Source: a virus. Taken from it: 31,253 nt of DNA. Shown here one piece after another: positions 3,525-21,803 of the stretch (position 1 is its first letter; each line of letters opens with the position of its first letter). Under the pieces are notes generated by a model that saw only the letters and a list, made by a program, of their open reading frames with translations, ran no database searches and was not told the origin of the DNA. The stretch covers positions 1-31,253 of the IMG/VR virus record IMGVR_UViG_3300025508_000099; one strand, 5' to 3'. Position numbers and translations under genes: made by a program.

Positions 3525-3944
3525 TTATACGGCTTCTCGTAACTCACTGCGAATTTTCATAATGATAACCCCTAAGTGGTTGCTACCTCTACCATTACAA
3601 ATACCCCAGAAAGTGTCACCCCATCTATTCCCTTCCTGTATTTCTCTGTCGCCCGTACCTAGCAGCTTTGACTTAAAAGGTTCTTGTGTGTACTTCTGAC
3701 GAGTCAAATCTTCCATTACTTCCAGCTTCACTTCGTCCCAATCATCTCTAATTGTAACCTTCTTGCCAGCCCGTTTTGCCTGCCCTGCGGTCATGCCAAC
3801 AAAAGGTTTTCGCTCATTCTTAACGACAGTCTTAGCTGCTTGGTAGGCGTTCTCAGTAGATGGGTAAGCCACACCATCTAAAAACACCCAGCAAGGAGTG
3901 AAGTTGCTTAACCATCGTTTACTTCCTTGAAATTCTTTAATCAT
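3525..3944 (-). CDS. NADAR/YbiA-family protein (139 aa)
   Basis: Member of the NADAR (YbiA, DUF1768) superfamily. Enzymes of this fold hydrolyse N-glycosidic bonds, either in riboflavin-pathway intermediates or by removing ADP-ribose from guanine. Family signatures visible: RWLSNF (10-15), the WVFLDGVAYPSTENAYQAAK stretch (19-38) with the conserved Glu 31, and the C-terminal NRWGDTFWG box. The start at 3944 follows GGAG; the 24 codons upstream form a hairpin-containing leader. The gene is visibly richer in G+C than its neighbours, and a 10-base inverted repeat flanks it, suggesting acquisition from elsewhere. In a phage it may counter a DarT-like ADP-ribosylating defence; that is inference. 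Confidence 0.85.
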   Translation of the reverse strand: MIKEFQGSKRWLSNFTPCWVFLDGVAYPSTENAYQAAKTVVKNERKPFVGMTAGQAKRAGKKVTIRDDWDEVKLEVMEDLTRQKYTQEPFKSKLLGTGDREIQEGNRWGDTFWGICNGRGSNHLGVIIMKIRSELREAV

Positions 3945-3955
3945 TTTAATTTCTC

Positions 3956-3976
3956 CAAAAGCCGTATAACAACGGC
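3956..3976 (-). terminator. short hairpin with T-run before the NADAR gene
   Basis: On the minus strand GCCGT-TGTTAT-ACGGC (3976-3961) is followed by TTTT. It lies between the upstream membrane-protein gene and the NADAR start, so it can act as a partial terminator or attenuator. Confidence 0.5.
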
Positions 3977-4023
3977 ATAGTTTTGACATCCTGCGCTGCG
4001 CTTGTCTGCAACACATGCTTAGG

Positions 4024-4973: not shown

Positions 4974-5603
4974 TCAATTTGAGCAACCATCTCGCCATCT
5001 CCTCACTGTATTGGAATGTTTACCAGTTACTTCCGCAACCTCAGATATAGTATACCCTTCTTTTATCATTTGTAAAGCTTTTTCTTTAGTAGATGTAGAA
5101 TTATTCTCTAGTTCAGCTAATCTACTATCTGTTACAATAGCATGTTCTACTAATGCTTCTGTAATATTCTCTAAATCCTCTACACGTTTAGCTAGATTAA
5201 CATAAGCACTGAGAGAGTTCAATAGACTACTTAATGTAGTAGACTCTCGTAAACTGCGCTTAACTCCTGTATTCCACACATCCTTATCTTTCATTAATGT
5301 ATATGTAGGGTGGTTTACATTATTCTTAATACTATAATCAATAATATTCTTATATACAGGGGAATGCTTAACTGTCTTCACCCACGTTTCAGGCTTATTG
5401 TGCTTATTAGAGACAACAGATAGTGCTTTAGTAGCATCATCTCCGGTGTCTAGCACATAAGTGTAGGCTTCATTAGTTTCTTGTTTAGAAGCTCTAAGCT
5501 TGCGTTTAATAACACCATCATCTATTAACTCTTGAATGAGAGAACGCTTCTCAGATTCTTGTTCTACTATTAGACGCTTTAGGTCATTGGAGTCTTTAAT
5601 CAC
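4974..5603 (-). CDS. putative DNA-binding protein with C-terminal HTH (209 aa)
   Basis: Starts at GTG (5601-5603) overlapping the stop of the upstream membrane peptide. Residues about 134-165 (LAKRVEDLENITEALVEHAI...ELENN) have coiled-coil heptads. The C-terminus (residues about 173-206, EKALQMIKEGYTISEVAEVTGKHSNTVRRW) is a clear helix-turn-helix of the transposase/resolvase-like type ending in Arg/Trp. The order coiled coil then HTH suggests an oligomeric DNA-binding regulator or replication accessory protein acting on phage or host DNA. The exact family is not recognised. Confidence 0.7.
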   Translation of the reverse strand: MIKDSNDLKRLIVEQESEKRSLIQELIDDGVIKRKLRASKQETNEAYTYVLDTGDDATKALSVVSNKHNKPETWVKTVKHSPVYKNIIDYSIKNNVNHPTYTLMKDKDVWNTGVKRSLRESTTLSSLLNSLSAYVNLAKRVEDLENITEALVEHAIVTDSRLAELENNSTSTKEKALQMIKEGYTISEVAEVTGKHSNTVRRWRDGCSN

Positions 5604-5876: not shown

Positions 5877-6089
5877 TTATTCTTCATCTAATTCTACATG
5901 AATTTCAAACCTATTACAAAGAAAGTCTTTATCTACATTCATAGATTGTTTACCGTAGTACCCATACTGCTTTGCATCTTCATTCATACATAAATAACCC
6001 ATATAGACGTTAGGTACTTTTGCATTCATTTGAAAGTACTTACAATCCGAACACGTCCTTTCCTCTTCTGCTGCTTCTTTAAAATCCAT
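5877..6089 (-). CDS. small Cys-rich putative zinc-binding protein (70 aa)
   Basis: The start at ATG 6089 has GAGGGTAAGG just upstream and sits 4 bases past the stop of the preceding gene. The longer open frame upstream is only that gene's shadow. C13 and C16 (CSDCKYF), C34 and C58 (LCNRFE) give a CxxC...C...C pattern with an aromatic after each Cys group, as in small phage zinc- or iron-sulfur-binding proteins. Role unknown. Confidence 0.65.
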   Translation of the reverse strand: MDFKEAAEEERTCSDCKYFQMNAKVPNVYMGYLCMNEDAKQYGYYGKQSMNVDKDFLCNRFEIHVELDEE

Positions 6090-6093
6090 AACC

Positions 6094-6297
6094 TTACCCT
6101 CTTCTAAACCTAACTTCATCCCACCATATCCTATCACCATTATTATGTAAAGCATAACCTTCATTATTAATGATATAAAGAGTAGTCTCAGAGTTTTGAG
6201 GAACAATACGTAAAGTAAGTCCCTCAGTATCACAACGCTTTTGTAAAGCACTATTGAAGTCTTGCTTCTTCCACTGTTTAAATTCATCTGGTGACAT
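6094..6297 (-). CDS. hypothetical protein (67 aa)
   Basis: I chose ATG 6297, preceded by AGGAG; the frame is open to 6327 but the earlier Met lacks a ribosome binding site and would overlap the upstream gene. The protein opens MSPDEFKQWKKQDFNSAL (helical) and then seems strand-rich (TLRIVPQNSETTLYIINNEG). No family recognised. It is tightly packed between its neighbours (1 and 4 bases). Confidence 0.6.
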   Translation of the reverse strand: MSPDEFKQWKKQDFNSALQKRCDTEGLTLRIVPQNSETTLYIINNEGYALHNNGDRIWWDEVRFRRG

Positions 6298-6298
6298 A

Positions 6299-6574
6299 TT
6301 ATAATTCTCCTGTTGTAATACCATCAATTAACCAAGATAATCTATGAGCGCAACACCATCTGTCAGAGATGTAAAGCATTTCATAATAATTATCTTCCTT
6401 ATTATAGCCTCCCAGCTCCCCTCCCGCTCTAAAATCATCTTCTTCGGTAGCACACCTCTTATATAGCTTTATCAGTGCGGGTAACAGAAGTTTAAACTTC
6501 TCAATAGATTTAGTATCTAAATAGTAATTGAACGCTTTGTTTGTCAGATAATGTAGTTTCTCTGGTCTCATCAT
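6299..6574 (-). CDS. hypothetical protein (91 aa)
   Basis: ORF with GAGGA ribosome binding site, starting MMRPEKLHYL. Helical N-terminal half (FNYYLDTKSIEKFKLLLPALIKLYKRC), acidic middle, and a C-terminal RWCCAHRLSWLIDG stretch with adjacent cysteines. No family recognised. It is part of the leftward series with 8 bases to the upstream gene. Confidence 0.55.
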   Translation of the reverse strand: MMRPEKLHYLTNKAFNYYLDTKSIEKFKLLLPALIKLYKRCATEEDDFRAGGELGGYNKEDNYYEMLYISDRWCCAHRLSWLIDGITTGEL

Positions 6575-9503: not shown

Positions 9504-10742
9504 ATGGGAACGCAATTAGAAGCTATAGACCTAATTAATAAAGGTGGTAATGTATTTCTCTCAGGTGGAGGAGGAGTTGGCAAGAGTTTTCTTATTGAGA
9601 AAATAACCACAAAAGATACTGTACTATCATCCTCCTCTGGACTAAGTGCCTTACACATAGGAGGGGAGACAACACATTCCTTATTTGGACTACCTAGAGG
9701 TCTTTACACAGAGAAAGATGCAAATACTATTAGCAGCACATTCAGAGCTATATTCAGTGGAACTAAAGTTAAACGTATTATAATGGATGAGATTTCTCGT
9801 ACACGCGCAGATAACTTGGATTTAATTGATATTAAACTTAGAAAAGTAAGAGAGAATGATCTACCCTTTGGAGGCATCCAAGTAGTATTAGTAGGAGATT
9901 TATTCCAATTAGCCCCCATAGTAGATGTATCAGAGAAGAGGATATATAGGCGTTTATATAAATCTCCTTGGATGTTTCACTCTAATGTATGGGATAGTGC
10001 CGATTTTACTACAATATGCCTAACAAAGGTATATAGACAAAGTAATGCAGAGCAAATCAAAGTATTATCCACTATAAGAGAAGGTGGAGAGGGGTTGGAG
10101 TCTGCTATAGAAAGTGTCAACTCTTGGTGTGTCTCTAAAGAGTTAGATAATAGGTTTTATTTATGCTCTCGTAATATAGATTCAGATAAAATTAACAATA
10201 AGTTCTATAAACTTAATACTAATCCAGAGGTAAAATACCCATCCTATAAAGTAGGCATAAAAGGAGAGGAGACTCTTATAAAAAATACAGATTTATTCTT
10301 AAAAGAAAATATGAGAGTAATAATCTGCGTAAATGATTCAGAAGGTGAGTATAGGAATGGGGAAAGGGGGTATATACTAAGCTTACACCCGAAGTACGTA
10401 ACAATAAAGAAAGATGATGGTACTATTGTAGATGTAGGTTATAAAAAAGAATCTACCTATAAGTATAAGATGTCTATAAAGGGTTTAGTTAGGAGTTTAG
10501 ATAAAACTATAAAAACTATTCCCGTTAAGGCAGGTTATGCTATAAGTATTGATAAAGCACAAGGGATGAGTTTAGATAATATTTATATAGATTTAGGTAA
10601 TAAACCTAGACTTGCAGCAGGGTTGTGTTATACTGCACTATCAAGAGTGAGAAATCTGGAAAACTCTGAGTTGAGTAGAAAGTTGACAATGGAGGATGTT
10701 ATAGTAGATAAAAAGGTTAAACAGTTTTATGAGGATTTATAA
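9504..10742 (+). CDS. SF1B DNA helicase, Dda/Pif1/RecD2-like (412 aa)
   Basis: 5'-3' DNA helicase. Walker A GGGGVGKS at residues 21-28, Walker B IIMDEIS with D95-E96, motif III VLVGDLFQLAP (about 128-138), late motif VI-type YTALSRVRN near residue 388, and KAQGMSLDNIYIDL before it. Size and motif set fit phage Dda, which helps start replication and displaces proteins from DNA. It lies upstream of the other replication genes and next to an HNH endonuclease gene. Start ATG 9504 follows AAGG. Confidence 0.9.
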   Translation: MGTQLEAIDLINKGGNVFLSGGGGVGKSFLIEKITTKDTVLSSSSGLSALHIGGETTHSLFGLPRGLYTEKDANTISSTFRAIFSGTKVKRIIMDEISRTRADNLDLIDIKLRKVRENDLPFGGIQVVLVGDLFQLAPIVDVSEKRIYRRLYKSPWMFHSNVWDSADFTTICLTKVYRQSNAEQIKVLSTIREGGEGLESAIESVNSWCVSKELDNRFYLCSRNIDSDKINNKFYKLNTNPEVKYPSYKVGIKGEETLIKNTDLFLKENMRVIICVNDSEGEYRNGERGYILSLHPKYVTIKKDDGTIVDVGYKKESTYKYKMSIKGLVRSLDKTIKTIPVKAGYAISIDKAQGMSLDNIYIDLGNKPRLAAGLCYTALSRVRNLENSELSRKLTMEDVIVDKKVKQFYEDL

Positions 10743-10755
10743 GAAGAGGTGAACA

Positions 10756-11436
10756 GTGCATAACAAATTAAGATTAAAAGGCCAAATCTTTGGAAGATTA
10801 TGGGTAATAGATGAAGATCATAATAGAACTAAAGCTTCAAAAGTAAAATGGGTATGTCTTTGTACGTGTGGTAATACTACTAGTGTAGTAGGTAGTCATC
10901 TAAAGAATGGCTGTATTCGATCCTGTGGGTGTTTAAAAATAGAAACTACTATTAAGATGAGTACTAAACATGGCTTAACAGGACACCCTTTGTACACTGT
11001 ATGGTTAAACATGAAACAAAGATGTAATAATCCTAAAAATAAGAATTATAAGAATTATGGGGGAAGGGGTATTACTATCTGTGATAGGTGGTTAAATAGT
11101 TTTCAGGATTTCTATGATGATATGATAAATGGTTATAAAGTGGGATTAGAACTAGATAGGATTGATAATGATAAAGGATATTATAAAGTCAATTGTAGGT
11201 GGGCTACACACAGTCAAAACTTAATGAATAAGGGTGCTGATATAGGGAAATCCAGTAAGTATAAAGGAGTACATTGGAGTAAGGCAAGTCATAATTGGGT
11301 AGCTAGGGTTATGAGAGGAGGAAAACTTCATCATCTAGGTTATTTTACAGATGAAAAAGAGGCTGCATTAATTTATAACAAGAAAGCTAAAGAACTTTTC
11401 GGAGAGTATGCTAATCTAAACAAGGTAGAGTATTAA
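10756..11436 (+). CDS. HNH homing endonuclease with AP2 DNA-binding domain (226 aa)
   Basis: Same build as the gene at 1559: Cys segment (C34, C36, C38, C57, C59), HNH-type region LELDRIDNDKGY...NCRWAT...QN (about residues 122-160), and C-terminal AP2 domain SKYKGVHWSK...LGYFTDEKEAALIYN...EYANLNKV (about 168-223). The start is GTG at 10756 with AGAAGAGG upstream. It sits 13 bases behind the helicase gene in the replication series, in the same direction and without its own clear promoter. Homing enzymes often sit beside conserved replication genes. The neighbouring helicase gene is intact. Confidence 0.93.
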   Translation: MHNKLRLKGQIFGRLWVIDEDHNRTKASKVKWVCLCTCGNTTSVVGSHLKNGCIRSCGCLKIETTIKMSTKHGLTGHPLYTVWLNMKQRCNNPKNKNYKNYGGRGITICDRWLNSFQDFYDDMINGYKVGLELDRIDNDKGYYKVNCRWATHSQNLMNKGADIGKSSKYKGVHWSKASHNWVARVMRGGKLHHLGYFTDEKEAALIYNKKAKELFGEYANLNKVEY

Positions 11437-11445
11437 CTATAAATG

Positions 11446-11477
11446 ATATCGTTATCAATAGAGATGTGCAACGATAT
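11446..11477 (+). terminator. hairpin after the second homing endonuclease gene
   Basis: ATATCGTT (11446-11453) pairs with AACGATAT (11470-11477) around a 16-base loop. There is no T-run, so it may be an RNA-processing stem or a boundary of the inserted gene rather than a terminator. Confidence 0.4.
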
Positions 11478-11506
11478 TACAATAATTTGAAGTATGGAGT
11501 TAAGTA

Positions 11507-11746
11507 ATGACAAATTCTCACCACTGCACAACACTAAACCTTAGGTATAAATTACCTCTAAGTAATAAGGAATTAGCTACACTAGATATGTATTACTCTT
11601 TATATGATAGCAAAAAATTCATTAAAGTGTTAGGCACTTCTTGTATAGTGTTAAGTATAAAAGAATCTAAATTCGCTCACTTATCTTATACTGAATTAAA
11701 AATAGATATTAAATTACAACAAGCATTAACATTAAAGGATAAATGA
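11507..11746 (+). CDS. hypothetical protein (79 aa)
   Basis: ORF with GGAG ribosome binding site. The protein contains YKLPLSNKELATLDMYYSLY and ends basic. It has no membrane segment and no motif I know. The stop overlaps the next ATG, so it belongs to a tightly coupled group of five small genes before the primase-helicase. Confidence 0.55.
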   Translation: MTNSHHCTTLNLRYKLPLSNKELATLDMYYSLYDSKKFIKVLGTSCIVLSIKESKFAHLSYTELKIDIKLQQALTLKDK

Positions 11747-11943
11747 TGAGAAATTATATACAAGTAAAAGAAATTGATGGTACGAATGTAGTAATAAATG
11801 AGGATTCAATAACACACTATTACGGGAGTGGAACAAGAGATGGTAATAATTATACTGAGGTGATACTAACTAGAGGCTTAGTGCGTGTGGATCTACCCTT
11901 AGAACAATTTAATAGTATTATTAAGAGGATAAGTAAGTTATGA
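11743..11943 (+). CDS. small FlbD-like beta protein (66 aa)
   Basis: Pattern IQVKEIDGTNVVINEDSITH...TEVILTRGLVRVDLPLEQF is that of short FlbD-like proteins common in phages: strand, turn, strand, then a helix ending at IIKRISKL. The residue order of the strands and the ILTRGLV box are the evidence. No catalytic residues. The exact start may be the first or second of two adjacent ATGs. Confidence 0.55.
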   Translation: MMRNYIQVKEIDGTNVVINEDSITHYYGSGTRDGNNYTEVILTRGLVRVDLPLEQFNSIIKRISKL

Positions 11944-12152
11944 AATTAAGTGAATGCAAATTAGGATTAGTAGTGCAAGGTGTAGACAATACTTACGATG
12001 AAATGATGAGTAAAAGAACTGGTTTTGGACACATATTAGGTTTTGAAGTGGTAAATAATAAATTATATGTTGTGGTACAGATGCCAGATAATCATAAAGG
12101 CTTCATTAACACTTACCTAGAACATCATCAGATAAAACCACTTGAGGATTAG
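11940..12152 (+). CDS. hypothetical small beta-rich protein (70 aa)
   Basis: ATG overlaps the previous stop. The protein reads as an SH3-like barrel of strands (LGLVVQGVD...GHILGFEVVNNKLYVVVQM...INTYLEHHQIKPLED), a form common among small phage proteins that describe 'G-x-V-x-G' barrels. Function unknown. Confidence 0.5.
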   Translation: MKLSECKLGLVVQGVDNTYDEMMSKRTGFGHILGFEVVNNKLYVVVQMPDNHKGFINTYLEHHQIKPLED

Positions 12153-12155
12153 AGG

Positions 12156-12332
12156 ATGACTGACCAACACAATATACAAAATATATTAGCTAGATTACAA
12201 AATGAAGGTAAGGGAGATTATACTAAATACCGCTGTGGAGAAACATACTTAGAATACTACTCCAAAAAAGAGGGTGATTGTATATACTTCGAGTTCGATA
12301 AAGATGGTAAACTATTAGATATTAGTGCTTAG
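12156..12332 (+). CDS. hypothetical protein (58 aa)
   Basis: Short ORF with ATG 3 bases past the previous stop and a GAGG ribosome binding site. A helical N-terminus (NIQNILARLQNEGKGD) is followed by a Tyr-rich strand region (YLEYYSKKEGDCIYFEFDKDG). Codon use is like its neighbours. No family recognised. Confidence 0.55.
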   Translation: MTDQHNIQNILARLQNEGKGDYTKYRCGETYLEYYSKKEGDCIYFEFDKDGKLLDISA

Positions 12333-12341
12333 GAGGGGGTT

Positions 12342-12563
12342 ATGGATAATTACACAGATGAAGAGTTATGCAGTACATTAAGAGAAAATAATGGATTAAT
12401 CAATTGCCAAGCTCAAATACAGGCAGCGGATAGAATTGAAGAGTTGTTAGAGACAGTAAAAAGGTTAAATAACACTATAATATCTATAACTGAACCTTAT
12501 AGCTTTTACCCACCATGTATTAATAATTCAGAAGAGAATGTAACTAAGATACTTAAAGAATAG
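12342..12563 (+). CDS. hypothetical helical protein (73 aa)
   Basis: GGAGGGGG ribosome binding site. Contains the QAADRIEELLETVKRLNN helix common in small phage proteins of the Ea22/restriction-alleviation type ('AADxIExL'), followed by a Pro/Tyr segment. The similarity covers only this helix, so no function is assigned. Confidence 0.55.
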   Translation: MDNYTDEELCSTLRENNGLINCQAQIQAADRIEELLETVKRLNNTIISITEPYSFYPPCINNSEENVTKILKE

Positions 12564-12581
12564 TATGAGAAGTAATAAAAT

Positions 12582-14420
12582 ATGACTGAACACGAAAATG
12601 GTATATGGATAAAAAATGTAGAATGCCCCTTCTGCTCCTCTTCTAATAATTTAAGCTTATATGAAAAACCAGATGGCATTATAGATGGATTCTGTCAAAC
12701 TCCAGATTGTCCCGATGGTCAATATAAGTCTACCAATAAATTAGCAGAAACTTTCCTAGCAGAAGAATATGACATTAAGAAGTTAATTAAAACAAACAGT
12801 AATAAAAAACAGGAGGAAAAGGTGATTACTAGAACTAGACGTAGTAAGACTAAAGAAAAAGCTCCTATTAGTAAGGAACAATTTAAAGAAATTATAGATA
12901 ACTCATCACTAAAAGGTGGTGGCTATCGTAAGATTAAAGATGAGTGGAATAAATACTATGGAGTAAGGACTGAATTTGATGGGGATGGTGCTGTAAAATG
13001 CAGATACTATCCTGTGACTCAAGGAGTAAATGATTCTGGTAAGCCTAAGATAACTGCGTTTAAGAAACGAGTGTGTGCTACTAAAGATTTCTACCCTACT
13101 GGACTATTATCTATGGATAGTGATTTGTTTGGGCAGTGGAAATGCAGTAGTAGTAAACGGGTGATAATCTGTGGAGGAGAGGAGGATACAATAGCAGCCA
13201 GACAGATGATTGAAGAATACCGTAAGCGTAAAGGTAAGGATAGCATAGCACCTATTGATGTAGTATCCTCTAGTCTAGGAGAGGGTAGTATAGATAAACA
13301 ATGTCAGAAGCAATATGATTTCTTAGATGGATATGATAGTATCATCTTAAATCTAGATAATGATAAAGCAGGTGATCTTGCTGTAGAAAAATTACTTAAA
13401 GTTTTACCTTATTTAAAAGTAAGGGTCATGGAACAGCCAGAGGATTGTAAAGACGCTTGTGATGTACTTAAAAATGGGCTTGCTAATGATTATATTAGGA
13501 ATATTTACAATGCTAAAAAACCTGTAGTTGCAGGTATCACTGGAAGTAGTACAATATTCGATGGAATCTTAGAGAACGTATCTAAGAAGAAAGTACCTTT
13601 ACCTAACTTCTTAGATAAAGTTAATGTTATGCTGGAGGGTGGTTTATCTATGAACACCTTTAACATTATAGCTGCCCATACCAGCGTAGGTAAGAGTACA
13701 GTTACTAATGAAATACTCTATCACTTAGTAATGAATGCAGAAGATAAGGTAGGTGTTATAAGCCTAGAGGCATCTAAACATGTACTAGGAGAGCAATTAC
13801 TATCCTTACACTTAAACAAACGCATAGCATCTATATCAAATGAAGATGATAAGGTTAAGTTCTTACTTGATAATAAGGATAAATCAGAAGAATTACTCAG
13901 AACAGTAGACGGAGATGATAGATTTTACATTATGGACGATAGAAGTTATCTATCTAATCCAGAGGAAGTGTTTAAGAATATAGATAAACTTATTAGAGGC
14001 TTCGGTGTAAAGTTAATTATCATTGACGTACTATCTGATTTGATGGATAATTTAGATATAAATGCACAAGCAGAGTTTATGGGCAGGATTAAGAAAGTAA
14101 TTGCAGCTAATGAAGTAATTATTATAGGCATTATGCACATGCGTAAGGAGATGTCAGGGAAGGAAGTAAACCCTCATTCTGTAAATGAACACAGTATTTA
14201 TGGAAGCTCTACTGCTATTAAAAGTGCTAGTACGGTAATTCTTATGTCAAGAGATAAACTGGCTGAATGCCCAGAAGAGAAGAATACTACAAGAGTAACA
14301 CTAACCAAAAATAGGGGTAATGGTGTTACAGGTAAATGTTGTGAGATATATTATGACTATAAAACTCATAAACTGCATGACAAAGATGATTGGTTAGAGA
14401 ATAATACTGAGGAGTATTAA
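12582..14420 (+). CDS. T7 gp4-like primase-helicase (612 aa)
   Basis: Bifunctional replication enzyme: it makes RNA primers and unwinds the fork ahead of the family A polymerase. Domains in order: zinc-binding primase domain (C15, C18, C38, C43); linker; TOPRIM primase core with E200-E201 (CGGEED) and D259-x-D261 (LDNDK); RecA-like hexameric helicase with Walker A HTSVGKST (366-373) and Walker B LIIIDVLSD (D482), then GIMHMRK and the C-terminal KSASTVILMSRDK. Length 612 compares with 566 for T7 gp4. It abuts the next gene (0 bases) and lies 278 bases before the DNA polymerase gene. Confidence 0.95.
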   Translation: MTEHENGIWIKNVECPFCSSSNNLSLYEKPDGIIDGFCQTPDCPDGQYKSTNKLAETFLAEEYDIKKLIKTNSNKKQEEKVITRTRRSKTKEKAPISKEQFKEIIDNSSLKGGGYRKIKDEWNKYYGVRTEFDGDGAVKCRYYPVTQGVNDSGKPKITAFKKRVCATKDFYPTGLLSMDSDLFGQWKCSSSKRVIICGGEEDTIAARQMIEEYRKRKGKDSIAPIDVVSSSLGEGSIDKQCQKQYDFLDGYDSIILNLDNDKAGDLAVEKLLKVLPYLKVRVMEQPEDCKDACDVLKNGLANDYIRNIYNAKKPVVAGITGSSTIFDGILENVSKKKVPLPNFLDKVNVMLEGGLSMNTFNIIAAHTSVGKSTVTNEILYHLVMNAEDKVGVISLEASKHVLGEQLLSLHLNKRIASISNEDDKVKFLLDNKDKSEELLRTVDGDDRFYIMDDRSYLSNPEEVFKNIDKLIRGFGVKLIIIDVLSDLMDNLDINAQAEFMGRIKKVIAANEVIIIGIMHMRKEMSGKEVNPHSVNEHSIYGSSTAIKSASTVILMSRDKLAECPEEKNTTRVTLTKNRGNGVTGKCCEIYYDYKTHKLHDKDDWLENNTEEY

Positions 14421-14696
14421 ATGAATAAAGAATTAGAGCAAGTAGTAGAGGCATGTGATAATATAGACGCTGATATATGGGAATGTCTTGGTCGGGAAGA
14501 TGAGTACCCACAATTAGAGATTACAATGACAGCTATGTATGGTTTACATGTTAAGTTCTTGGGTGAATCTATCTGGTATTCAGATGATGACATGAGAGAA
14601 TGGATTGAAGATGAAGGTGACTATGAACCTATAGAGCCTTATTTACGTAAGAAGATTAATGAGAAGATTGAGTTTATTAAAAAGATAAAGGTGTAA
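14421..14696 (+). CDS. acidic hypothetical protein (91 aa)
   Basis: The ATG directly follows the helicase stop. Very acidic, with many Asp/Glu and Trp (WECLGREDEYPQLE, WYSDDDMREWIEDEGDYEP), and a lysine-rich end. It lies between primase-helicase and polymerase, so it may be a small replication accessory or a DNA mimic; neither is shown by the sequence. Confidence 0.6.
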   Translation: MNKELEQVVEACDNIDADIWECLGREDEYPQLEITMTAMYGLHVKFLGESIWYSDDDMREWIEDEGDYEPIEPYLRKKINEKIEFIKKIKV

Positions 14697-14698
14697 AA

Positions 14699-17371
14699 AT
14701 GGCAGTTAACATTACAGGAGATATCGAGACTAATAATCTACTCAACAATGATAGTATTTGTTATAATTCATCGCCTTATAAACTTAAAGATACTTACAAA
14801 ACTCACTGTATTGTATTAGAGATACATGAGACTAATGAGATTATAGCATTCTACAATGGGAAGAAGTATATTCTGGATGGTCGTGAGTTTATTGAGAAAG
14901 ATGATAAGTACACTTATGAGTTGAAAGATTATGAACCTATTGAATACACGCATTATCAATTAAGGGAATTTCCTGATTACATTAAAGGTATTAAGGATTT
15001 AGATAAGGTTGTATTTCACAATGGAATTAACTTTGATTTCCTCTCCTGTAAGTTGTACTTCGGTATGGACTATACTATTGGTGGGTTAGACGGAGAGTCT
15101 GATACGTGGTGTGGTAGAGAAGTGGATATTGTAGATACAATGATCTTATCTAAAACATTAAACTCTGATCGTTTATGTGGTCACAGTCTAGATAAATTAT
15201 CTAAAGTAGCTGGAGGTGCTGAGAAGGTAGATTTTAGACCACACGTACCTAAGAAAGATAAGTACAATACATTTGCAGTGGATATGTTGTACTACAATAT
15301 TTTTGATGTGAAGTCTAATACAGATGTATATAATTACTTAGAGAAAGAACGTAAGCAAGACGATTGGAATTGGGATGCAGCTATTAGATTAGAGAAGAAA
15401 GTGGCAGAAATAGTATGTCGCTCTAGTCACAGAGGATTCAAGTTTGACATAGAATTAGCTGAGAAATGTATTCGTGAGCTTGACGAACTCATGGAAGAAA
15501 GACGACAACGTGTAGAACCATTACTACCACCACGACCAGCTACTAAGAAGTTTCTAAAGGAACATACACCTCCTGCTAGTCAGATACTAGAGAAGGAGAT
15601 TCCATTCCCTAAGTCATTCTTTAACAAGAAGATGAAGTTAAGTAAGACGGGCGAGAAATGGCTAGAGAAATATGATGCCACTTATAATGAAGATAAATGT
15701 GAGATTGAAGTAAATGGTATTACATTAAAGAAAGACTATGATACAGGTGGTGGCAATTATAGTTTTCCTCCTGTAGCATTTACAGAGAAATCTTTATCGG
15801 CTAATATTAAGAAGTTTGCAGATAAACATGGTGGTAGTTATGATGAGGATAATTTAACTATTATAGTGTTTGGTGAGACTATGAAGTTACCTATTGATGT
15901 GAAGGCGTTGAAGACTCACATGGTGGCTGAAATTAAAAATACTACCCATATTAAAGAGTGGCTGGTATCTCTAGGATGGCAACCATCTGAGTATAAGATG
16001 AAGGACATTACACTAAAGTCTGGCACTAAGATTAAGCGCACTAAGGAAGAACTGGAAGTAGCTGTAGATAGGTATATAGAAGAGACTCTTAATTCTGAGT
16101 TTTGTTCTGATCGTTGCAAACACCTAAGAGCTAGGCCTACTTACTTGAGTTTAAAAAGTAAGATGATGGAAAAAGCAGAACGGTATGGATGTAAAGTTCT
16201 GACCAACGCTTCCTTCACAGTAGGCCAAAATAAAGAGTTGTGTAAGGATTTAGAACGTATTGCTGAGAGATTTCCTTACGTACAGGATATTGTAGAATAT
16301 CTTACATATAAACACAGGCGTTCAAGTATTTTAGGTGGAGATGCAGATTGGGATAGTGATGAAGAAGCTGAAAAAGGGTATATGGCTCATGTAAGGGAGG
16401 ATGGGAGAATTGCTACGGAAGCTGATACTTGTGGTTGTGCATCAAGTAGATTTAAGCATAAAAAGGTTACGAATATTCCTCGTACTACATCTTTATATGG
16501 CAAACAGATGAGGGCTTTGTTTGGAGTAGATAAAGATTACTTACAAGTTGGGTATGATTTTGATAGTCTAGAGAATGTAATTCAGGCACACTACACTTGG
16601 GGTTATGATAGTGAGGATAAACCTTACTGTAATTCTCTAGTAAGACCTAAACCTCTGGACGCACATACAATCATGGCAGAAGCCTTGTCTCTAACATTAG
16701 GTACAACATTTGATAGAGGTAGTGCCAAATCTGTGAACTATTGTATTGCTTATGGAGGACAAGCACCTAAAGTAGCTCAGACTATCGGCTGTGATGTCAA
16801 AACAGGAGAGAGAGTATTTGACACCTACTGGGAAGTTGCTAAACCTCTCAAGATACTACAGGATAAGTTGACTAAATGGTGGGAAGTAAAGGGAGATAAG
16901 AAGTATATTATCGCTCTTGATGGCAGGAAGATATATACTAGGGCTAAACATGCCCTCTTAAATTCTTTATTCCAAAGCGGAGGGGTTATTTGTGCTAAAG
17001 TAGCGGCAGTTTACCACGATAAGTTAATTAATGATGCAGGACTATCTTGCGATTTCTTTAAGGATGACTGGAGAAATAAGAAGTTCTCACAATCACTTAT
17101 AATGTTTCATGATGAAGCGCAGATAGAAGAGAACCGTGAGAACTTTATATTTAAATCTTTTAATAGTAAAGAAGAAGCGTTGACTTTTAGTAAAGAAGAT
17201 GATAAGATATGGTCTGAGCCTATTTATAAAGGAGATAGAGTGTTCTTAGGTTGGAGTCTATCCTCTGAGCTGATAACCAAGGCAGTAGATATGACTACAG
17301 AACATTTTAAGTTGAAAGTACCATTGACCGCAGGGTATGCAATTGGTAAAGATTGGTCGGACTGTCACTAA
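14699..17371 (+). CDS. family A DNA polymerase, T7 gp5-like (890 aa)
   Basis: Replicative polymerase with 3'-5' proofreading. Exonuclease: Exo I D8/E10 (GDIET), Exo II HNGINFD (H107-D113), Exo III Y199/D203 (YYNIFD). Polymerase: motif A with D620 and E625 (YDFDSLE), motif B R673-x3-K677-x3-Y681 (RGSAKSVNYCIAYGG), motif C HDE (804-806). It ends GKDWSDCH, the usual T7-like C-terminus, so the protein is complete. At 890 residues it is longer than T7 gp5 (704); the extra length is spread through the exonuclease-to-thumb region. Immediately after the stop lies a homing-endonuclease remnant. Upstream context: primase-helicase. Confidence 0.97.
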   Translation: MAVNITGDIETNNLLNNDSICYNSSPYKLKDTYKTHCIVLEIHETNEIIAFYNGKKYILDGREFIEKDDKYTYELKDYEPIEYTHYQLREFPDYIKGIKDLDKVVFHNGINFDFLSCKLYFGMDYTIGGLDGESDTWCGREVDIVDTMILSKTLNSDRLCGHSLDKLSKVAGGAEKVDFRPHVPKKDKYNTFAVDMLYYNIFDVKSNTDVYNYLEKERKQDDWNWDAAIRLEKKVAEIVCRSSHRGFKFDIELAEKCIRELDELMEERRQRVEPLLPPRPATKKFLKEHTPPASQILEKEIPFPKSFFNKKMKLSKTGEKWLEKYDATYNEDKCEIEVNGITLKKDYDTGGGNYSFPPVAFTEKSLSANIKKFADKHGGSYDEDNLTIIVFGETMKLPIDVKALKTHMVAEIKNTTHIKEWLVSLGWQPSEYKMKDITLKSGTKIKRTKEELEVAVDRYIEETLNSEFCSDRCKHLRARPTYLSLKSKMMEKAERYGCKVLTNASFTVGQNKELCKDLERIAERFPYVQDIVEYLTYKHRRSSILGGDADWDSDEEAEKGYMAHVREDGRIATEADTCGCASSRFKHKKVTNIPRTTSLYGKQMRALFGVDKDYLQVGYDFDSLENVIQAHYTWGYDSEDKPYCNSLVRPKPLDAHTIMAEALSLTLGTTFDRGSAKSVNYCIAYGGQAPKVAQTIGCDVKTGERVFDTYWEVAKPLKILQDKLTKWWEVKGDKKYIIALDGRKIYTRAKHALLNSLFQSGGVICAKVAAVYHDKLINDAGLSCDFFKDDWRNKKFSQSLIMFHDEAQIEENRENFIFKSFNSKEEALTFSKEDDKIWSEPIYKGDRVFLGWSLSSELITKAVDMTTEHFKLKVPLTAGYAIGKDWSDCH

Positions 17372-17373
17372 AG

Positions 17374-17514
17374 AGGGTGGCTAAATTTAAAAAAGATGGT
17401 AAACAAAAACATCTAGGTAATCATGTATTGGAAACAGATGCAGCCAAGGCCTATAATGACTACGCTTTTAAGATTAATGGTGAATACGCCTACTTAAACA
17501 AAATAGAGGATTAA
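17374..17514 (+). pseudogene. remnant of an HNH-AP2 homing endonuclease (AP2 domain end)
   Basis: In the frame read from 17374 the DNA encodes 46 residues, RVAKFKKDGKQKHLG ... AAKAYNDYAFKINGEYAYLNKIED, then TAA. This matches the last two thirds of the AP2 domains of the genes at 1559 and 10756 (RVMRGGKLHHLGYF..., EYANLNKV). It has no start codon and no nuclease part, and begins 2 bases after the polymerase stop in another frame. Thus a third endonuclease once stood here and lost its front by deletion. Its 3' end still supplies AGAGG as ribosome binding site for the gene at 17516. Confidence 0.85.
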
Positions 17515-17515
17515 C

Positions 17516-17914
17516 ATGAAGAATGATTATGTAGAAACTATAGTAAATAAAATACCTATCTCTAGACAAGTAGAAGTGTACAATAAACTAGATAACTGGG
17601 AGTGGTTTGAAGAATTACCAGAAGATGAGCCTAATTACTATGTACCTAATAGTGTAAGAGGATATTTTCTTTATTTTCTACAGAAAGCTATAAGTCGTAA
17701 TTTTAGTGGCAAACGTAAACCTAATTCACCCTCCCCTGTACTATGGTCAGACATAGTAGAAGAAAAAGTAGGAGGTTATAAAGACAGATGTAATAGGTAT
17801 AGTGTATTTATGAATAGCTATAGGAATAAGAGTGTAGAGGGTTTAACACAAATAGATTTAATAAGAATGTTGAATAAATTAGATGAAATCAATGGAGAAA
17901 TAAATGAACGATAA
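17516..17914 (+). CDS. hypothetical protein (132 aa)
   Basis: ATG 1 base after the AP2 remnant. Hydrophilic protein with WEWFEELPEDEPNYYVP near the front and a helical C-terminus (IDLIRMLNKLDEINGEIN). No motif recognised. The end overlaps the next start by 11 bases, so it belongs to the polymerase-to-SSB gene series. Confidence 0.6.
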   Translation: MKNDYVETIVNKIPISRQVEVYNKLDNWEWFEELPEDEPNYYVPNSVRGYFLYFLQKAISRNFSGKRKPNSPSPVLWSDIVEEKVGGYKDRCNRYSVFMNSYRNKSVEGLTQIDLIRMLNKLDEINGEINER

Positions 17915-18158
17915 AACAAGATATAAAATTGGAGATGAACTAAAAGCAACCTTAGTTATCACAGAAGAGGATGAATATGATGATGAAAAACATTATTCTT
18001 TAGAGGTTAAAGGATTACCTGATGCAGGTATAGATAATGTTTTCACTCAGGAAGAATTAGATCAAGTATTCAATCGTGCTTTTATTAAACGTAAATTACA
18101 AGCTGATATTGATAAAGCAACTAAACTATTAGAGGAGATGAATAATAATGATGCCTAA
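17904..18158 (+). CDS. hypothetical protein (84 aa)
   Basis: GGAG ribosome binding site inside the preceding gene. A strand-rich first half (IGDELKATLVITEEDEYDDEK) is followed by a C-terminal helix with heptad-like spacing (LQADIDKATKLLEEMNN). Possibly a small dimer. Function unknown. Confidence 0.55.
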   Translation: MNDKTRYKIGDELKATLVITEEDEYDDEKHYSLEVKGLPDAGIDNVFTQEELDQVFNRAFIKRKLQADIDKATKLLEEMNNNDA

Positions 18159-18342
18159 ATTTCTATCACAAGTCCCTATTAATGACTTCGAGCATGAAGA
18201 TGGAGGTAAGGGATTAACATTAACGTATGAATGGTTAACTGAACAACTTAGAATAGGAGGGGTTATGGAAAGTAATGAGGTTATTAGTCAAGTAAATGTA
18301 GCACATGAAGGTATTGTGTTATTTGTTAAGGAGGGAATGTAA
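18148..18342 (+). CDS. hypothetical protein (64 aa)
   Basis: Starts inside the end of the previous gene (MM) and ends one base into the next start region. It contains VPINDFEHEDGGKGLTLTYE and a strand-like end (AHEGIVLFVKEGM). No family recognised; supported by tight coupling and ribosome binding site GAGGAG. Confidence 0.5.
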   Translation: MMPKFLSQVPINDFEHEDGGKGLTLTYEWLTEQLRIGGVMESNEVISQVNVAHEGIVLFVKEGM

Positions 18343-18791
18343 TGTTATTTTATATATTATGGTTATTGGCTTTTATAGCAGTAATACTAGGAGTCATAAA
18401 GTCATTCCATAGGTATGATGAAGGTGGAGGCTTCTTTATGATAATATTTGGTATAGTATTTTGTATTATACCCCTAGTATCTTGGATTAGCCATTCCAGT
18501 GATCTTTCTAACATTAAGAACCAACACTTGAATATAAAAGAATATCAATTGCGTGTGGATAGTTTACAAGAGAGGTTAAATAACTTTGACTACCCAGTAG
18601 GCGCATTAATGAATGCAGATACTCCAGTTGCAGCCATTGTTAACTCACTGTCTCATGCAGAGTCAAAACTATTAGCAGCAAAAGAGAGTATGATTGAAAG
18701 TATTAAAGACGTAGATGCTAGAAAATTAGGGCCAATGTCAGGAGTTATTAACTTCGTTGGCGATTATAAACAACAAACTGAATTAAATTAA
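18342..18791 (+). CDS. two-pass membrane protein with periplasmic or cytosolic helical tail (149 aa)
   Basis: Membrane segments at about residues 2-21 (LFYILWLLAFIAVILGVIKS) and 31-50 (FFMIIFGIVFCIIPLVSWI). Then an extended helical region (LNIKEYQLRVDSLQERLNNF and AESKLLAAKESMIESIKD), likely a coiled coil. AAGGAGG ribosome binding site. The general form resembles LemA-like or phage membrane scaffolds, but I cannot assign it. It may anchor a phage complex at the membrane. Confidence 0.65.
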   Translation: MLFYILWLLAFIAVILGVIKSFHRYDEGGGFFMIIFGIVFCIIPLVSWISHSSDLSNIKNQHLNIKEYQLRVDSLQERLNNFDYPVGALMNADTPVAAIVNSLSHAESKLLAAKESMIESIKDVDARKLGPMSGVINFVGDYKQQTELN

Positions 18792-18804
18792 TAGGAAATG
18801 TAAT

Positions 18805-19074
18805 ATGACGACAGTAAACTTTAAATATGAAAATGGTGACTTACTTAGAGATAAAGTAACTAAACTGGAAGGTATTGTGCGTGTACGTGCAGAGTATTCT
18901 ACAGGGTGTCACCACTATGGATTGCAACAACAGAAGGTATTAGAAGCGGGGGGTACTCCAGAGTGGGTGTGGTTAGACCAGTCACAATTAGAGTTAGTAG
19001 AAAATGGTGTGGTAACTTATGATGTAAACCCAGAGACTACTAGTGGGTCATTTCCATCAGGGCCTAATCAGTAA
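18805..19074 (+). CDS. conserved phage small protein (89 aa)
   Basis: The pattern DKVTKLEGIVRVRAEYSTGCHHYGLQQQ ... PEWVWLDQSQLELVE is typical of a widespread phage/prophage family of small beta-barrel proteins (turn 'TGC..YG', then 'W.D..LE'). The tail is Ser/Gly/Pro-rich. AGGAAATGTAAT leads into ATG, a leader shared with the next gene. Role unknown. Confidence 0.65.
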   Translation: MTTVNFKYENGDLLRDKVTKLEGIVRVRAEYSTGCHHYGLQQQKVLEAGGTPEWVWLDQSQLELVENGVVTYDVNPETTSGSFPSGPNQ

Positions 19075-19109
19075 TAAACTAATTAAATTAAACTAAGAGG
19101 AAATGTAAT

Positions 19110-20222
19110 ATGAGCTTGAAAAAGAAACAACTAGAATCACAAGGCGAAGGTCTTAACTACAACTTCATTCACGGTCAAGTGGAGGACGATACACATGATG
19201 CACGCATCTCTGTTATTATTGATGCTGGAACACAGGAAGCAGCAGAAGCAGTGTATGGTACTAAAATGGATGTTACTAACGTATCGTACTTCTTAACAGA
19301 AGAGGAAGCATTTGATTATGGAGATCGTGCAGAGAAGATTGTAGGTGGGTATATCTATGGAGAAGAAGGCTGGGATGAGCAGCCAGAAGAAGTAGAGGCT
19401 ACTAAGGAGATTATCGAAGAATACAAAGTAGATGCAGAAGTAGGACAGACATTATATCAAGTAAACTTTAAGATCGTGCAGCCTAAGCCAAGGGAAGAGG
19501 TTATCTATGCTGTAGACTTAGTAGACACGTATGTTAATTATAAAGAAGATGGTACAAAAGAAGATGCACTTCAATACCGCGTGTGGTTAAACCAACGTGA
19601 TTTTATGACTAAAGAGTTGAAAGGCTTCTCTACTAACTTTGCACCACCTAAAGGTAAGAACAACAAGGGTTGGACATTCTCTCCTTTATCTATGCACTCT
19701 AAGTTAGCAGAAGCTACAGGTGAGCTAGATATTATCAACCCTCAGAGCGCAGATCATGGTGATCTATCTTTATTACTAGATAAACCTATTGGCATCCCTA
19801 CTACACAAAAGCACTCTGAAAGTAATGGTAAGGAATATATTAACTTAAAGATTGGTGCGCCTGTACGTCTATCTAAGAAATTACTTAACTTAGGTATTAC
19901 AGAATTAGATTGCACACCAGAAGCTATTGATTTTGAGACAGCTACAGTAGAGCAATTTGAGAATGCTAAACCTAATAAATTGGTGATTGCTAAAATCAAG
20001 AAGTCTATTGATTATGAAGGCTCTCAGATGCAGAAAGCATTAGAAGAGTGGGAAGCTAGTAAAGGAAGTTCTAATAAAACTGAGGTAGCCGATGAAGATA
20101 AGCAAGAGACATCCAAAGAAGAAGTTCCTAAGAAGTCAGTTGAGAAAGCGAAGGCTAAAACTAAAGCTCCTGTAGATGATGAAGAAGTAGATGCAGATGA
20201 TGTATTTGGTTTAGATGACTAA
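19110..20222 (+). CDS. probable single-stranded DNA-binding protein (370 aa)
   Basis: Assigned from position between polymerase and exonuclease genes, and from its C-terminus. A Lys/Glu-rich linker (about 315-350) is followed by the strongly acidic end DDEEVDADDVFGLDD, the kind of acidic tail with a final aromatic-hydrophobic tip that T7 gp2.5 and bacterial SSB use to contact replication partners. The N-terminal 300 residues contain strands consistent with an OB-type fold (DVTNVSYFLTEEE, IYAVDLVDTYVNY). At 370 residues it is longer than T7 gp2.5 (232). The fold itself cannot be shown by eye. Confidence 0.65.
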   Translation: MSLKKKQLESQGEGLNYNFIHGQVEDDTHDARISVIIDAGTQEAAEAVYGTKMDVTNVSYFLTEEEAFDYGDRAEKIVGGYIYGEEGWDEQPEEVEATKEIIEEYKVDAEVGQTLYQVNFKIVQPKPREEVIYAVDLVDTYVNYKEDGTKEDALQYRVWLNQRDFMTKELKGFSTNFAPPKGKNNKGWTFSPLSMHSKLAEATGELDIINPQSADHGDLSLLLDKPIGIPTTQKHSESNGKEYINLKIGAPVRLSKKLLNLGITELDCTPEAIDFETATVEQFENAKPNKLVIAKIKKSIDYEGSQMQKALEEWEASKGSSNKTEVADEDKQETSKEEVPKKSVEKAKAKTKAPVDDEEVDADDVFGLDD

Positions 20223-20266
20223 GCAATAATAGCATACACAAGGATGTGTATAATCTAGGAGGACGT

Positions 20267-21466
20267 ATGGGATTAAAGAAGAATAAACCAGTAGACGGAA
20301 GATTAAAACAGTTTCCAGATAGTAAACTAACAGCAATCTTAGATACAGATTGGTGTGCTTATAGTATTGCGAGTGTGGGAGATGAGTTGTACATAGAGGT
20401 TACGCACAATGGTACAGGCAAGACTGTAGAGTTTAAAAATGTAACTGAGTTCAAAGGTAAAGGTAAGCAATTAGGTGGCTGGTTAGGGGAACAGAATATT
20501 AAACGTGAGGCTAAAGGTAAGCCATTACTGTCTCTTGATGACTTCACTATAGAGCCTAAACAAAGACGTAAGAAGGAGTATGAATATAAAACTATCAAGG
20601 AAACTGAATATAATAAGAAAGATTATAGAGGGTGGACTGTTATAGGTGAACCTGATTTAGATGGGGATATTCAATTAAGAAAACCTATTACGGATGATGA
20701 AGCCTTAGTACGAATCTTCTATTCTGCCAAATCTACTATTAAGAAAGCATTAGCGGATTTAGGTACACATAAGTATGAATCTTACTTAGGAAAAGGTGGT
20801 AAATACCGCGAGGATTTATCTACACTGCTAAAGTACAAAGGTAATAGAGATAATACTTTACGCCCTCTTGTAATGAAAGATGTAGTAGAATATTTAGAAC
20901 GATCCTTTGATAGTACCGTTATAAATCACATCGAGAATGATGATGCAGTTGTAATGAGGGCTTATGGTGATCCTAATGCTGTAGTAGTAGGAGAGGATAA
21001 AGATTTCTATGGATGCCCAGTAAAATTCTTTAATGCTAATCGTCCAGAAGAAGGTATTATAGATGGAGATTGTTTTGGAGAGTTACGAAGAGAGGGGGCT
21101 AAGAATAAAATAAGAGGTCATGGCAGATTATTCTCTTATTGGCAAATGTTAGCTGGTGATTCGTCTGATAATTATAAAGCGAGTTGTCACTCTGATGTTA
21201 GGTATGGAGATGTAGCAGCTTATAATGACCTTGTAGATTGCAAAGATGATAAAGAAGCTCTAGAGAAAATGATAGAGGTGTTCAAGCGTTTATATCCAGA
21301 ACCTAAAGTAGTTAAATCATGGAGAGGCCATGAGATGCTAATAGATTGGTTGTATGTAGCTAGAGAGCAATTTAGAATGGCTACCATGTTACGTTGGGAA
21401 GGGGATAGTAGAACGTTGGATACGGAGCTTGCTAAGTATAATGTGGAGTATAGTTATGAAAACTGA
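20267..21466 (+). CDS. 5'-3' exonuclease, T7 gp6/FEN-like (399 aa)
   Basis: PIN/FLAP-type nuclease that removes RNA primers and degrades 5' ends. Metal-binding motifs: ILDTDW (D26/D28), NHIENDDAVVMRAYG (about 215-229), VGEDKDFYG (about 234-242), and MLAGDSSDNY (about 294-303), the order found in T7 gp6 and T4 RNase H. A Lys/Arg region (KYKGNRDNTLRP) matches the arch. The start is ATG 20267 with AGGAGG 10 bases before; the frame is open 21 bases further. A small ORF starts in its last codons. Confidence 0.85.
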   Translation: MGLKKNKPVDGRLKQFPDSKLTAILDTDWCAYSIASVGDELYIEVTHNGTGKTVEFKNVTEFKGKGKQLGGWLGEQNIKREAKGKPLLSLDDFTIEPKQRRKKEYEYKTIKETEYNKKDYRGWTVIGEPDLDGDIQLRKPITDDEALVRIFYSAKSTIKKALADLGTHKYESYLGKGGKYREDLSTLLKYKGNRDNTLRPLVMKDVVEYLERSFDSTVINHIENDDAVVMRAYGDPNAVVVGEDKDFYGCPVKFFNANRPEEGIIDGDCFGELRREGAKNKIRGHGRLFSYWQMLAGDSSDNYKASCHSDVRYGDVAAYNDLVDCKDDKEALEKMIEVFKRLYPEPKVVKSWRGHEMLIDWLYVAREQFRMATMLRWEGDSRTLDTELAKYNVEYSYEN

Positions 21467-21590
21467 ATATAAACTATGGCACTTTACCTATGAAAGTGTA
21501 GGTAAAGTTACTGTTATATATTGGAAAGATGTACCTATAGTAGAAAGGGTATGTAATCAGGTAATGATATTTGGATGGTGGCTATATTAG
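21456..21590 (+). CDS. hypothetical protein (44 aa)
   Basis: Short ORF beginning inside the end of the exonuclease gene and ending just before the AGGAGG of the next gene. Residues MKTEYKLWHFTYESVGKV then IYWKDVPIVERV and a hydrophobic end, MIFGWWLY. It fills an otherwise empty 136 bases, with codon use like its neighbours. Weakly supported start (GGAG at 21445). Confidence 0.5.
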   Translation: MKTEYKLWHFTYESVGKVTVIYWKDVPIVERVCNQVMIFGWWLY

Positions 21591-21602
21591 GAGGAGTAAC
21601 TA

Positions 21603-21803
21603 ATGAAACAAGTAGCAATACTATACAAAGGTGATAAACCATCTTACCCAGAAGTAGAGGATATGGAATATACATACATTAAGAATCCTTGGCATGTACA
21701 TGGTATGGCATTCGATGGACTGATAGTAGATGATATGAGTATAGATAAGAGTTTGGTTAAACAAGCTATGAGTTATGTGAGAGAAGGTGACTATGACACC
21801 TGA
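21603..21803 (+). CDS. hypothetical protein (66 aa)
   Basis: AGGAGG ribosome binding site. An alternating strand-like protein (QVAILYKGDKPSYPEVEDM, MEYTYIKNPWHVHG, LIVDDMSIDKS). No motif recognised. The end overlaps the next start by about 10 bases. Confidence 0.55.
   Translation: MKQVAILYKGDKPSYPEVEDMEYTYIKNPWHVHGMAFDGLIVDDMSIDKSLVKQAMSYVREGDYDT

Follow-up and report, generated by a model that had tools for sequence, protein, structure and literature searches.

A free-standing homing endonuclease gene spreads because its product cuts alleles without the gene, usually close to a neighbouring essential gene, and repair then copies the gene in; the presence of such genes beside phage polymerases, and also their decay, is well known. 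Among the closest described systems is the IPA-HNH family of phage ICP1 and others (Barth et al., 2023; PMC10448857), free-standing genes that encode an N-terminal HNH-like and a C-terminal AP2 domain and lie near replication genes, with a DNA polymerase gene in 29% of the surveyed neighbourhoods; a frameshifted inactive copy was described in the same survey. The T4 seg and mob endonuclease genes are promoter-less operon cassettes, within which embedded promoters for the downstream genes hinder deletion and so favour retention of the endonuclease gene (PMC2988022). HNH enzymes of T7-like and SPO1-like phages (I-TslI, I-HmuI, I-PfoP3I; PMC3428280) and those of collaborative homing (PMC3984707) are likewise associated with phage DNA polymerases. 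The locus described here, part of a 31,253-nucleotide stretch of viral DNA (hereafter the window; features lie on its plus strand unless stated), differs from each of these. Unlike the IPA-HNH genes it keeps only the AP2 end, abutting the polymerase stop codon, and in a cousin lineage the tail has come to serve as the end of another ORF. Where the T4 genes carry promoters, it carries a putative Shine-Dalgarno sequence in the last codons, which outlasted the enzyme. Finally, the T7-like and SPO1-like enzymes lie in introns or target intron sites, whereas the window has no intron here and the protein belongs to another subfamily.

The remnant follows a family A DNA polymerase gene (14699–17371, 890 aa; Pfam DNA_pol_A, E = 2.2e-14) that aligns end to end with its relatives and is complete to the usual C-terminus (...DWSDCH; stop TAA at 17369–17371). 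Motif A of this polymerase reads SLENV, where the relatives compared have SLEAR or SLEAK. After a gap of 2 bases, and in a different frame, 46 codons (AGG GTG GCT AAA..., 17374–17511, 138 bases) run to a stop at 17512–17514, so that the remnant occupies 17374–17514; a frame open across 46 codons was found in only 1.6% of base shuffles. The next gene (17516–17914, 132 aa) begins with its ATG at 17516, right after the remnant; it was matched by near-identical records only, has no family match in Pfam or PHROGs, and is replaced by unrelated genes at the corresponding position of the cousin contig L005. Two further assemblies (L004 and L007) have a junction identical to that of the window, which excludes an assembly error. 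The predicted RNA fold energy at the junction was like that of shuffled sequences (z = –0.99), and promoter-consensus matches within the remnant were as many as the shuffle mean.

When the 46 residues were searched against the window, the only matches besides the remnant itself were the C-terminal ends of two intact HNH-AP2 genes (11299–11430, 48% identity, E = 1.9e-7; 2081–2206, 43%, E = 5.9e-6). The alignment with the protein of the gene starting at 10756 scored 93, whereas 3000 residue shuffles averaged 27.9 (sd 4.4) and reached 52 at most. In PHROGs the remnant matched the end of the HNH-endonuclease profile phrog_99 (E = 5.3e-7), and of its phage matches (30 listed of 245) all but a few hypothetical or unannotated records are named as HNH or homing endonucleases. 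No Pfam AP2 match was obtained on the remnant, presumably because the fragment is short. It aligns with residues 182–225 (44 residues) of the intact 226-residue protein, in which the Pfam AP2 match spans 167–215; about 69% of the domain, its last part, is thus kept together with the C-terminal tail. In a structure model of the intact protein, poor as a whole and with a local pLDDT of about 70–80 in the AP2 part, that part is a three-strand sheet plus a helix, and by this model the remnant is without strand 1 and keeps most of strand 2, strand 3 and the helix. The remnant therefore has a C-terminal AP2 domain that lacks its first strand and lies 2 bases from an essential replication gene, the DNA polymerase; it has no N-terminal HNH nuclease domain, and the interval from the polymerase stop to 17374 contains no HNH codons, which makes it a remnant and not a member of the HNH-AP2 (IPA-HNH) homing endonucleases. 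These data identify it as the 3' end of an HNH-AP2 gene. The original prediction, that the last two thirds of an AP2 domain follow the polymerase stop in another frame and resemble the ends of the two intact proteins, was borne out by the measured 69% and by identities far above shuffles. Its further statement that the fragment has no start holds for ATG; a TTG at 17353, within the polymerase gene, and a GTG at 17377–17379, 6 bases past the polymerase stop and, judged from sequence, a possible re-initiation start, are both in frame.

Both intact genes (10756–11436, phrog_374 E = 1.8e-79; 1502–2212, phrog_374 E = 7e-76) encode HNH plus AP2 in a single open frame, with Pfam AP2 matches of E about 8e-4, which is under Pfam's cut-off. 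The copy at 10756–11436 lies directly behind a RecD-like helicase gene and is not found at that place in the cousin. Conversely, an intact HNH-AP2 gene of the cousin (L016) sits between the homologues of window genes 24179–25258 and 25248/25260–25523, which adjoin in the window and leave an empty dock at 25240–25265. Each copy is thus present in one lineage and absent from the other at a conserved site, the presence/absence polymorphism expected of a homing element. Elsewhere in the window, a minus-strand gene (3525–4016) encodes a NADAR-family protein (riboflavin-intermediate N-glycosidase and anti-phage NADAR models), a possible defence or counter-defence gene.

The last codons of the remnant appear to double as a translation signal. 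The remnant ends in AACAAAATAGAGGATTAACATG, and the codons for N-K-I-E-D/E (AAATAGAGGA) hold a Shine-Dalgarno-like AGAGGA at 17505–17510, within the K-I-E-D tail codons and 5 bases upstream of the ATG at 17516. The cousin's intact gene L016 has the same anatomy: it starts within the end of its upstream gene and ends in AATAAAATAGAGGAAAATTAATATG, where the ATG of the second gene begins, so that the tail motif (AATAGAGGAAAATTAATATG at the gene end) is the putative Shine-Dalgarno of the downstream gene, as in the remnant. That the 3' end of the lost gene was left as the ribosome binding site donor of the next gene, as had been proposed, is well supported by this anatomy, and the remnant appears, from the arrangement of these signals, to have been retained for that purpose. 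The intact HNH-AP2 gene of an unrelated phage (L185) uses its tail in the same way with other bases, and several distant HNH genes have a Shine-Dalgarno of another sequence in the tail while others have none. We therefore rejected the AP2 tail as a specific signature of a Shine-Dalgarno carrier; because distant copies vary in both sequence and presence, a tail-borne signal reflects general gene packing.

We asked whether the flank behind the polymerase holds endonuclease genes in other phages. A polymerase-alignment search returned 69 viral loci, of which 56 were used for the dock count, and in 10 of the 56 an endonuclease gene starts 5–71 bases past the polymerase stop. By Pfam the dock genes belong to NUMOD4-HNH_3, HNH_3, HNH_3-AP2, Endonuclease VII and GIY-YIG families; that of L084, although unmatched in Pfam, is similar to HNH-AP2 proteins. 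Another of the ten, the Endonuclease VII gene of L068, is interrupted by an in-frame TAG and is a second decayed copy in the polymerase dock. In L068, endonuclease-like sequences occur before, within and after one polymerase gene (1934–2332, 5049–5426 and 5989–6417), the last being the one with the TAG. Endonuclease-like matches within 1 kb of the polymerase numbered 15 upstream (0.27 per kb) and 10 downstream (0.18 per kb), with 3 inside the polymerase, against 5 in about 174 kb (0.03 per kb) and 11 in about 172 kb (0.06 per kb) farther out; as the downstream queries are themselves among the matches and the loci were not dereplicated, this density count is an indication and not a test. Together these observations support a recurrent endonuclease dock behind the polymerase in relatives. 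The original prediction had named this junction in related phages as the place to look for an intact HNH-AP2 gene. Endonuclease genes do occur there, as counted above, but among the relatives searched none was an intact HNH-AP2 gene bearing the remnant's tail behind the same polymerase, and the ancestral full gene at the remnant site is accordingly one that we infer. A search for a full gene with GEY[.]YLNKIE returned four contigs, all from the window and cousin lineages, a longer tail returned only two near-identical records, and the tail had no match in bacterial and archaeal genomes. The shorter tail GEYAYLNKI was found at the end of the intact L185 gene.

The cousin lineage (L005/L006), whose polymerase is 72% identical overall to that of the window, has kept a different piece of the same tail. 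Its polymerase gene (L005:5001–7796) encodes about 42 additional residues near the C-terminus that the window polymerase does not have. Behind the polymerase stop lies a 66-residue ORF, Cys-rich at first and ending in ...FLCIEFE-LNGEYTYLNKIED, in which the end corresponds to the last 13–15 codons of the remnant's AP2 tail, joined in frame. This ORF (L005:7799–7999), whose ATG overlaps the TGA stop of the polymerase gene, is apparently a chimeric new gene that is translationally coupled to the polymerase. Its Cys-rich part has no AP2 similarity and weakly resembles a small Cys protein of the window (5877–6287) that ends near the FE position; homologues were limited to the ORF itself in viral contigs, with none significant in named phages. 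Window and cousin share here an island of 54 bases (17474–17527, 89% DNA identity) that comprises the AP2 tail, the Shine-Dalgarno and the start of the next gene, with dissimilar flanks. With 46 codons kept in the window and 13–15 in the cousin, two different truncations took place.

The island lies in a block of about 1.7 kb (16391–18070) that takes in the polymerase's catalytic half together with the dock and the gene after it. As far as 16391 the window is about 90% identical to the cousin; identity then drops to about 57% across the catalytic half, is high in the island, stays low until about 17870, is mixed as far as 18070 and returns to about 90% beyond it; apart from the island and part of 17891–18070, the block is at about 40–65%. 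The polymerase gene is a chimera relative to the cousin, with about 90% DNA identity in the N half and about 57% in the catalytic half (16391–17371). The N halves of the two polymerases are 89% and the C halves 53% identical, and window and cousin are nevertheless sisters in both half trees, so that one lineage probably obtained its C half from a remoter relative within their group. We interpret the block as a recombination replacement tract between sister lineages. Homing co-conversion would yield a tract of such kind. However, the block was rejected as proof of co-conversion, since the primase, SSB and exonuclease genes differ equally with no endonuclease nearby; the lineages are mosaic elsewhere, and the tract around the remnant need not come from homing. 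Along 9504–25523 the window and the cousin genome (G002) form a patchwork in which small genes near 90% identity alternate with replication genes at about 28–46%.

We conclude, with a probability of roughly 0.85, that a free-standing HNH-AP2 homing endonuclease gene once occupied the dock immediately after the DNA polymerase gene and left the remnant as its 3' scar. A cassette of this kind would fit a compact operon because its start meets or overlaps the end of the upstream gene and its last codons (N-K-I-E-D/E) bring the Shine-Dalgarno of the downstream gene. Once the enzyme was no longer useful the gene body would be lost; removing the last codons as well would shut off the next gene, and the tail would therefore remain as a translational linker, of 46 codons in the window and 13–15 in the cousin. 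The sequences themselves show what the remnant is, the dock in relatives, the ribosome binding site borne by the tail of intact copies and the two truncation points, whereas homing activity, this order of events and selection for the tail are inferred from them. As to how the body was lost, the proposal of a deletion reaching close to the polymerase stop stands for the loss of an HNH-AP2 gene down to its 3' end and not for a single deletion as the mechanism. Because the dock lies within the replacement tract, the body may have been lost by in-place deletion or by exchange, and recombination is as likely as a simple deletion; given the different truncation point of the cousin, exchange or separate losses are equally possible as one deletion. 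Only short chance repeats were found when repeats marking a deletion end point were sought.

An alternative is that the fragment arrived already truncated, within the tract that replaced the catalytic half of the polymerase, illegitimate recombination at the polymerase stop having produced the junction. The fall in identity at 16391 with recovery only near 18071, the contrast between the polymerase halves and the position of the tail as a high-identity island within the tract would all fit, and we consider such an arrival possible though unlikely: intact endonuclease genes lie at exactly this spot in many relatives, which makes a local loss simpler, and the cousin independently retains the tail end. 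That the fragment is still a gene is improbable. A 45-residue peptide could be made by re-initiation at GTG 17377 and might act, for example, in DNA binding or in translational coupling between the polymerase gene and the gene at 17516; the rarity of so long an open frame among shuffles and the open, coupled ORF with the same tail in the cousin, whose ATG overlaps the polymerase stop, speak for it. However, strand 1 of the AP2 sheet is gone by model and alignment alike, the GTG has no Shine-Dalgarno at a proper distance, and the L004 and L007 copies are nearly identical and so offer no divergent copies for gauging selection on the residues.

Two further readings have very little to recommend them. 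If the 46 codons belonged to the 3' end of some unrelated conserved gene, with a chance likeness to AP2, relatives should show them as the end of that gene, and the cousin's last 13–15 codons do end another, Cys-rich ORF. The tail of this ORF is itself AP2-derived, however, and the loss of an endonuclease is not refuted by it: the Cys-rich part is without AP2 likeness and resembles, weakly, the other small Cys protein ending near FE, the 44-residue match is far above shuffles, and GEYAYLNKI recurs in the intact HNH-AP2 gene of an unrelated phage. Chance likeness is already contradicted by these matches and is highly improbable. Equally remote is an endonuclease borne by a group I intron or intein of the polymerase. 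Such elements do interrupt related polymerases, as in phage nepoznato and in the matches inside polymerase genes (the nepoznato polymerase, L023:2492–6061, has in its catalytic half an in-frame insertion of about 320 residues that is not in relatives and is probably an intein), but the window polymerase runs without a break to its normal C-terminus, and the fragment comes after the stop. The whole window has no Rfam family match, and a self-splicing intron carrying the endonuclease was rejected.

The scar of a free-standing gene thus illustrates what survives the death of a phage homing endonuclease, the next gene having taken over the cassette's exit ribosome binding site as its own. The flanks of this family A polymerase emerge as a repeatedly colonised endonuclease dock, consistent with published surveys, and the cousin offers a small example of a new ORF built from an endonuclease scar. 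More tentatively, and with considerable doubt on our part, homing endonuclease tails may be reusable translational linkers that outlive the enzyme, fuse to small genes and serve as homology islands for exchange. If so, last codons that double as the next gene's Shine-Dalgarno would explain why the tail survives, the 66-residue chimera of the cousin would be a case of in-frame fusion, and lineages would use these islands to swap neighbouring modules, for instance the polymerase's catalytic half. The remnant itself is an instructive but ordinary relic; of greater interest is that two lineages reuse its tail as a linker.
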